Made by a program: the position numbers and the translations under genes. Below, one piece after another: positions 38,717 through 40,720 of a stretch of 64,000 nucleotides of DNA. The DNA is from Ectothiorhodospiraceae bacterium 2226 (GTDB taxonomy: Bacteria; Pseudomonadota; Gammaproteobacteria; GCA-013348725). Below the pieces are notes generated by a model, which worked only from the letters and a program-made list of their open reading frames with translations, did not search any database and was not told the origin of the DNA. The stretch lies in NCBI GenBank assembly GCA_013348725.1, contig CP054689.1:2104501-2168500 (forward strand), read 5' to 3'. Numbering within the stretch: position 1 is the stretch's first letter; every line of letters starts with the position of its first letter.

Positions 38717-39494
38717 CCCCGCGACGGAACTGCTCGGGTTGTCGAGCCGTTGGACGGCGGTCTGGCTGCGCAACTTTCTGGTGTGGCGCAAGCTCGCCGG
38801 CCCCGCCATTCTCGGCAACCTGGGCGAGCCGCTGCTCTACCTGCTGGCGCTGGGCTACGGCTTCGGGGCGCTGGTGGGCGAGGTGCACGGGCTCGATTAC
38901 ATCGTGTTCCTCGCCTCCGGCATCGTGTGCGCCAGCGCCATGAACACCGCCAGCTTCGAGACCATGTACTCGGCCTATACCCGCATGGCGGTGCAGCATA
39001 CCTGGGAGGGCATCCTCACCGCGCCGCTCGGCATCGGCGACGTGGCGCTGGGCGAGGTGGTGTGGGCCGCGAGCAAGGGCCTGCTCAGCGCCGCGGCGAT
39101 CCTGCTGGTGGCCGCCCTGCTGGGGGCGGTGCAGGGCTGGGCCGCGCTGTGGGCGCTGCCGGTGGTGTTTCTGCTGGGGCTGGCCTTCGCGTCCATGGCC
39201 ATGGTGATGACCGCGGTGGCGATGAACTACGACTTCTTTTTGTATTACGTCACCCTGGTGCTCACCCCGATGTTCCTGCTCTCGGGGGTGTTCTTTCCGC
39301 TGGACGCGATGCCGGCGTTGATCCAGCAGGCCGCCTGGGTGTTGCCGCTGACGCACGGCGTGGCGGTGGTGCGGCCGCTGATGACCGAACTGCCGCTCGG
39401 CGCCGTGTGGCCGCATTTGCTGGTGGTGGCGGCTTACGCGCTCGCGGCTTACGCGCTGGCGGTGGTGCTGTTGCGGCGCCGTTTGCTGCGTTGA
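38709..39494 (+). CDS. ABC-2 transporter permease (NodJ-like)
   Basis: A 261-aa inner-membrane protein with six predicted helices and the ABC-2 motif region near ASGIVCASAMNTASFE and LTPMFLLSGVFFPLD. The start GTG 38709 overlaps the ATPase gene by 8 bp, as usual for this pair. It forms an exporter with the NodI-like ATPase. It is the last gene of the operon; 350 bp with regulatory signals follow. Confidence 0.92.
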   Translation: MTSPATELLGLSSRWTAVWLRNFLVWRKLAGPAILGNLGEPLLYLLALGYGFGALVGEVHGLDYIVFLASGIVCASAMNTASFETMYSAYTRMAVQHTWEGILTAPLGIGDVALGEVVWAASKGLLSAAAILLVAALLGAVQGWAALWALPVVFLLGLAFASMAMVMTAVAMNYDFFLYYVTLVLTPMFLLSGVFFPLDAMPALIQQAAWVLPLTHGVAVVRPLMTELPLGAVWPHLLVVAAYALAAYALAVVLLRRRLLR

Positions 39495-39625
39495 AGCTGC
39501 CGTGAGCGAGGGCGAACCAAACAGCTCAGACAATGATTTCAATCGCTTATTGTCGTCGCCGCCTGATTCGCGCGCGCGCGCCGGGCTCGTGGGATGGGCG
39601 GGCGAGCAGAATCCAGGGAAGGGGC

Positions 39626-39654
39626 TTGACGGAGTAGTAGCGGATCATTATATT
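39626..39654 (+). promoter_or_regulatory. Near-consensus sigma-70 promoter
   Basis: A -35 box TTGACG (39626-39631), an exact 17-bp spacer and a -10 box TATATT (39649-39654). Predicted transcription start near 39661. It is the best promoter-like sequence I found in the window. No ORF follows before a strong terminator. Confidence 0.75.
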
Positions 39655-39660
39655 AGCAAA

Positions 39661-39745
39661 CACTGATTTGCGAGATCGCAGTCAGACTCCTCCATCCTCC
39701 TTTGGTGGTTTATTAGGCGGCCCTCCCGGGCCGCCATTTTTTTTT
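39661..39745 (+). ncRNA. Candidate small regulatory RNA with anti-Shine-Dalgarno motifs
   Basis: About 85 nt between a near-consensus promoter and an intrinsic terminator. It has no start codon or ORF. The middle is C/U-rich with two anti-Shine-Dalgarno motifs (ACTCCTCCATCCTCCTTT, about 39686-39703), the pattern of small RNAs that pair with ribosome-binding sites. It ends in the terminator hairpin and a run of T. It lies upstream of rplM, which has its own promoter at 39777, so this is probably a separate transcript; premature termination of an rplM leader is the alternative. Confidence 0.6.
39716..39745 (+). terminator. Intrinsic terminator of the candidate small RNA
   Basis: An 8-bp GC stem (GGCGGCCC / GGGCCGCC) with a TCCC loop, followed by A and nine T (39737-39745). 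Textbook Rho-independent terminator. Confidence 0.92.
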
Positions 39746-39776: not shown

Positions 39777-39805
39777 TTGCAGTCGAGGGCGCCCTTCGCT
39801 ACCAT
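39777..39805 (+). promoter_or_regulatory. Putative rplM-rpsI promoter
   Basis: TTGCAG (39777-39782), a 17-bp spacer and TACCAT (39800-39805), 38 bp before the rplM start. It sits after the terminator at 39745, so the ribosomal operon has its own start. Confidence 0.55.
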
Positions 39806-39843: not shown

Positions 39844-40272
39844 ATGAAGACGTTCAGCGCTAAGCCCCAGACCGTTCAGCGCGACTGGTTCGTGGTCGAT
39901 GCGGACGGCAAGACGCTGGGCCGGCTGGCGACGGAAATCGCGCGCCGCCTGCGGGGCAAGCACAAGCCCGAGTTCACGCCGCACGTCGACACCGGCGACT
40001 ATATCGTCGTCGTGAACGCCGAAAAGGTGCGCGTCACGGGCCGCAAGGAAACCGACAAGCTGTATCACCACCACACCGGTTTCATCGGTGGGCTGAAGAC
40101 GATCAGCTTCGACAAGCTGCGCGACAAGGCGCCCGAGCGCATCATCGAGATCGCGGTGAAGGGCATGCTGCCCAAGAACACGCTGGGCCGCGCCATGTTC
40201 CGCAAGCTCAAGGTCTACAAAGGCCCCGAGCACCGGCACACCGCGCAGCAGCCCCAAGCGCTTGAGATCTAG
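39844..40272 (+). CDS. rplM: Ribosomal protein L13 (uL13)
   Basis: A 142-aa large-subunit protein, the same length as E. coli L13. Landmarks: [53 protein letters not shown] and the C-terminal [19 protein letters not shown] 39844 follows GGAGAATTC. Cotranscribed with rpsI, 55 bp apart. In E. coli L13 can act as an autogenous regulator of this operon. Confidence 0.98.
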
Positions 40273-40327: not shown

Positions 40328-40720
40328 ATGCCCCAGAATCAGTACTACGGCACCGGCCGCCGCAAGAGTTCCACGGCGCGCGTCTATCTGCGCCCGGGCA
40401 CCGGCAGCATCACCATCAACCGCCGTCCGATCGATGAATACTTCGGTCGTGAGACCGCGCGTATGCTGGTGCGTCAGCCGCTGGACGTCGCCCAGGCCGA
40501 CGGCAAGTTCGACATCGCCGTGACCGTGGCCGGTGGGGGCGCTAGCGGTCAGGCCGGTGCGATTCGCCACGGCATCACGCGCGCCCTGATGGCGTACGAC
40601 GAAGCGCTGCGCCCGGCGCTGCGCAAGGCCGGCTATGTGACGCGCGACGCGCGCGAGGTCGAGCGCAAGAAGGTCGGTCTGCACAAGGCTCGTCGTCGTC
40701 CGCAGTTCTCCAAGCGCTAA
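40328..40720 (+). CDS. rpsI: Ribosomal protein S9 (uS9)
   Basis: A 130-aa small-subunit protein, full length. Landmarks: [46 protein letters not shown] and the conserved basic C-terminus ending KRR-x-x-FSKR, which reaches the P-site tRNA. Starts 55 bp after rplM, with an AGGACAGGA-type ribosome site. Followed by tRNA-Gln. Confidence 0.98.

Follow-up and report, generated by a model that had tools for sequence, protein, structure and literature searches.

The window analysed here, a 64,000-nt stretch of the 2.96-Mb chromosome of a gammaproteobacterium (G000), carries a predicted small RNA that lies downstream of two ABC transporter genes and upstream of the ribosomal protein genes rplM and rpsI (Table 1). 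The original prediction had described a near-consensus promoter, an ORF-free stretch of about 85 nt running into a textbook terminator, and two motifs complementary to Shine–Dalgarno (SD) sequences; all of these elements are present, the promoter being the sole sigma-70-type site between positions 39000 and 41000, where shuffling of the 2 kb leads one to expect 0.2. The start of the RNA was inferred from promoter spacing and its 3' end from the T run. No plausible ORF was found within it, the overlapping ORFs (29–59 aa) being purely mechanical. Beyond the earlier description, the layout includes an additional 5' hairpin, and anti-SD site 1 is divided such that 39687–39691 are single-stranded ahead of the second hairpin while its stem begins with 39692–39693. 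A 54-aa GTG ORF (39502–39666, +) in the interval separating the ABC permease gene from the sRNA overlaps the promoter and is probably not a gene.

Table 1. Features of the small RNA locus (positions within the window).
Feature	Position	Strand	Basis or remark
sRNA promoter TTGACG-17-TATATT	39626..39654	+	TTGACG 39626-39631, 17-nt spacer, TATATT 39649-39654
Predicted small RNA, ~85 nt (85-86)	39661..39745	+	Fold z = -4.7; same-layout homologues across Gammaproteobacteria
5' hairpin CTGATTTGCGAGATCGCAGTCAG	39663..39685	+	RNAfold
Ultraconserved core CTCCTCCATCCTCCTTTGGTGG, containing both anti-SD sites	39687..39708	+	
Anti-SD site 1, CTCCTCC	39687..39693	+	Sequence; layout counterpart is Site 1 of Bordetella S17 (PMC11722255)
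Anti-SD hairpin, stem CCATC/GGTGG, loop CTCCTTT	39692..39708	+	Site 2; UCCUCC (TCCTCC in DNA) 39695-39700
Intrinsic terminator	39716..39745	+	8-bp stem 39716-39735, loop 4; nine T at 39737-39745
Likely separate rplM promoter TTGCAG-17-TACCAT	39777..39805	+	Weak, 7/12; better site in relatives
rplM (ribosomal protein L13), downstream neighbour	39844..40272	+	ATG at 39844; PF00572, E = 2.3e-48
rpsI (ribosomal protein S9)	40328..40720	+	PF00380, E = 1.9e-50

Conservation and fold of the RNA

Searching 55 other genomes of the class by blastn returned matches with E values down to 5.6e-11 that were confined to the sRNA, at loci sharing its promoter, 5' hairpin, core CTCCTCCATCCTCCTTTGGTGG and terminator and lying mostly ahead of rplM. 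Among 43 loci retrieved either by blastn or with the RF02278 model, neither of which demands the core (two genomes are counted twice), the core was identical at 22 of 22 positions in 25, and most of the others differed at one to four. An exact scan of species genomes recovered the core in at least 118 stretches; the matches listed come from Chromatiales, Thiotrichales, Arenicellales and Acidiferrobacteraceae (genera Thiocapsa, Allochromatium, Thioalkalivibrio, Halochromatium, Sedimenticola, Thiodiazotropha, Thiothrix, Thiomargarita and Arenicella), and one is from a member of the Gallionellaceae. A covariance model built from 39 gammaproteobacterial sequences (R1) found the RNA in 154 of the 369 genomes of the class, a count that is no unbiased census since about 32 of the 39 derive from the same genomes that were searched. 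Matches in a sample of the phylum, the make-up of which is only partly listed, were confined to the same class. The exact core was absent from the viral contigs, the plasmids gave no match to the sRNA, and the core sequence did not turn up in the literature searched.

For the predicted 86-nt RNA, RNAfold gives -34.6 kcal/mol, a stability equalled by none of 200 shuffled sequences. With the middle hairpin in its conserved form, CCATC-CTCCTTT-GGTGG, the energy is -33.2 kcal/mol; RNAfold favours an alternative that is 1.4 kcal/mol lower. The mean z of the 5' segment over 92 related loci is -2.5, as against -0.02 in control DNA further upstream, and the signal is weaker in the window alone (z = -1.7); the sequence of the 5' hairpin varies freely among loci and its fold is retained.

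Alignment with related genomes had been proposed as a check on the RNA, and it yielded both of the signs hoped for: compensatory changes in the terminator, affecting all six consensus pairs in the family alignment, and a conserved CU-rich core. RNAalifold recovered the terminator alone from the whole alignment because loop insertions were misaligned, and the pairs of the anti-SD hairpin were therefore tallied sequence by sequence. Its five stem pairs are all retained in 36 of the 39 aligned sequences; two sequences have C-G and two have U-A in place of the U-G pair, and the loop varies in length. Both strands of the stem are nearly frozen along with the anti-SD letters, which suggests a constraint beyond simple pairing with SD sequences.

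Genomic neighbourhoods and promoters

In 65 of the 79 genomes in which both were placed, the RNA precedes rplM by 149–756 nt in the same orientation, a fraction that is no unbiased census since the rplM listing covered just the more similar genomes. Of 120 copies among the exact-core matches listed, 46 precede rplM; over 20 are situated in the tgt–queA interval, antisense to these two genes, and about nine Thioalkalivibrio copies adjoin a histidine kinase gene. The tgt–queA copies occur in Chromatiaceae and Sedimenticola (L063, L090, L109, L126, L152, L163 and others). Three tandem copies are found in a member of the Thiotrichaceae (L114, 5782–6024), where a full T run and terminator are found in the last copy alone, so that the three look as though cut from a single transcript. 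Some genomes carry an rplM-linked copy plus another elsewhere.

The promoter is conserved as well. At the corresponding place, a site matching at least nine of 12 consensus positions was found in 86 of 116 related loci, compared with seven of 116 control stretches, and relatives with TTGAC share the consensus TTGACA-17-GAAAAT, with a conserved TATTA directly before the -10 hexamer. In many loci (e.g. L058, L059) a conserved box, TATTAGAAA(A/C)T, stands about 11 nt past TTGACA and upstream of the core; it may represent a -10 region of unusual form or a site for a regulator, and the window has the -10 hexamer TATATT instead. The original prediction also gave rplM a promoter of its own past the terminator. 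This finds better support among the relatives, where candidates matching at least nine of 12 positions occur in 19 of 45 loci (5.7 expected), than in the window itself, where the site is weak.

Relation to known RNA families

At the gathering threshold, Rfam reported only a tRNA in the window. Its sole meaningful match was RF02278, at 31.1 bits (E = 2.9e-4) against a gathering cutoff of 50, so that membership by the curated cutoff is not reached; the layout of the family (CUCCUCC, two hairpins, an anti-SD loop and a terminator) is present in full. The model aligns over its full length (positions 1–64), and the locus is the best RF02278 match in its own genome. A relative with an identical core (L157) scores 50.5 bits with RF02278, and R1, built from gammaproteobacterial sequences, recovers G106 and G223, the two genomes whose scores clear the RF02278 cutoff; the two groups are thus probably homologous. 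Other Rfam candidates, suhB/mmgR, ncS16 and NmsRb, matched weakly, as C-rich look-alikes.

RF02278, named 'Betaproteobacteria toxic sRNA', comprises the toxic or double-hairpin RNAs of Burkholderia, which have CU-rich sites complementary to ribosome-binding sites (PMC4603805; PMC5688073; PMC7011215) and have been termed exclusive to Betaproteobacteria (PMC7011215). Like the window RNA, Burkholderia ncS03, ncS05, ncS27 and ncS62 have CUCCUCC followed by a hairpin of the CCAcC..GGUGG type whose loop contains CUCC and then a terminator, and both groups often occur in several copies per genome. The gammaproteobacterial RNA differs in that its core, CUCCUCCAUCCUCCUUUGGUGG, replaces the betaproteobacterial form, in its often extra 5' hairpin, and in its conserved place upstream of rplM–rpsI. 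From these sequence comparisons it looks like a gammaproteobacterial counterpart of an sRNA family described only in Betaproteobacteria.

The RNA also resembles Bordetella pertussis S17/S17S, a relative of the RF02278 RNAs, in having a single-stranded 5' Site 1, a Site 2 in the first loop and then a terminator, both sites being complementary to ribosome-binding sites. S17S differs in that RNase E releases it from a precursor of 190 nt encoded between BP3151 and coq7, whereas the window RNA of about 85 nt lies directly behind its promoter. The alphaproteobacterial cuckoo RNAs (alpha-r14/NfeR1, CcsR1-4) are alike in keeping an ultraconserved anti-SD motif, in their case CCUCCUCCC, within unpaired parts of hairpins that have variable stems and in forming tandem copies, as in the Thiotrichaceae locus; they differ in motif, layout and class, CcsR being linked to DUF1127 genes, and no significant Rfam match ties the window RNA to them.

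A family listed only from Betaproteobacteria appears to include a large gammaproteobacterial branch that has gone unlisted. This branch occurs in sulfur-oxidising and phototrophic lineages and is marked by a 22-nt anti-SD core that has hardly changed and by a conserved position next to a ribosomal operon. The set can serve directly as a covariance model for annotation, and the role of the 'toxic' anti-SD RNAs becomes testable in culturable genera, among them Allochromatium, Thiocapsa and Thioalkalivibrio.

Possible mode of action and alternatives

We consider it likely that the locus encodes an independently transcribed, Rho-independently terminated, trans-acting sRNA of about 85 nt that exposes anti-SD sites to block ribosome binding on mRNAs. 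The choice of a trans-acting sRNA over an rplM leader, made at the outset, is borne out by the near-invariant core, the covarying terminator and the conserved promoter, and by the copies away from rplM, including those in tandem and antisense to their neighbours. By analogy with its relatives, the sRNA probably lowers translation of other genes. Hfq probably assists it: hfq is present in the same genome, and the RNA has its own promoter and an intrinsic terminator with a long U run, as Hfq-dependent sRNAs do. The U-rich 3' end would be bound by Hfq, and sites 1 and 2 would pair, in a group of mRNAs, with purine-rich ribosome-binding sites, keeping the 30S subunit off and so reducing translation. 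The conserved place of the RNA beside rplM–rpsI suggests a link to growth rate. We propose a block on initiation because the relatives that have been studied act at ribosome-binding sites. Of the interactions predicted for the Burkholderia double-hairpin RNAs, 55–80% lie around gene starts, and overexpression of ncS27 slows growth (PMC5688073). S17 directly represses BP2158 in Bordetella, and of the 92 genes upregulated in its absence, 70 carry sequences matching its single-stranded sites (PMC11722255).

The original prediction had suggested a target search in 5' regions; a search for exact extended complements found none at likely start regions of the genome. Site 2 has its exact 10-mer complement at no other place in the genome, and site 1 has five further exact complements, none of which lies ahead of a start codon; AAAGGAGGAT has no second copy, and TGGAGGAGTC is found elsewhere solely in coding-looking contexts. 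Targets must thus pair through shorter, non-specific SD-like matches. Neither rplM nor rpsI is supported as a special target, the duplex of the core with rplM start regions being near that of shuffled sequence (-11.1 versus -10.4 kcal/mol). A CsrA/RsmA sponge would carry repeated GGA; since there is none in 39660–39745, this role is unlikely.

The conserved position ahead of rplM on the same strand is what one would expect of a cis-acting rplM–rpsI leader, with the terminator attenuating read-through and the anti-SD hairpin sensing a ribosomal protein or ribosome availability. Yet such a leader should always be linked to rplM as its 5' UTR, and the tgt–queA, histidine-kinase and tandem copies argue against dependence on any one downstream gene; the wide range of distances to rplM, the likely rplM promoters past the terminator and the near-background duplex energy point the same way, and we regard this reading as unlikely. 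That the upstream gene's terminator merely adjoins a C-rich stretch by chance might be entertained, since both are common in G+C-rich genomes and two terminator-like sites occur in the 2 kb where 1.5 are expected. The chance of this is minute: a near-invariant core, covariation, an own promoter and synteny across many genera refute it in practice. On sequence grounds the sRNA is real and widely conserved, and not a chance arrangement.

The 3' tail of 16S rRNA reads AUCACCUCCUUA, and the core AUCCUCCUUU resembles it. A highly abundant RNA mimicking this tail could act as a ribosome-linked general modulator, competing for strong SD sequences at large; the adjoining ribosomal operon and the lack of specific extended targets in the genome would fit, as would the inhibition of growth by overexpressed relatives (PMC4603805; PMC5688073). 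Very high abundance would be needed, however, and S17 affects a limited gene set with little toxicity in E. coli (PMC11722255), such that general modulation seems improbable next to the trans-acting sRNA with a set of targets favoured here. A more speculative proposal, which we hold as doubtful, is that an RNA copy of the ribosome's anti-SD tail, conserved in many Gammaproteobacteria beside the L13–S9 operon and competing with 30S subunits over SD sites, adjusts translation initiation to ribosome synthesis.

The same chromosome contains a possible paralogue on the minus strand (G000:C1:35817-35877; 40.4 bits with R1, E = 2e-8; locus L197, about 1318–1378), a diverged C-rich double hairpin with TTCCTCCCTCACCCCCCCTGGGTGA and a terminator. 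It lies about 35 nt past a gene for an EF-hand protein, shortly behind the stop codon, and is possibly a second copy derived from a 3' UTR.
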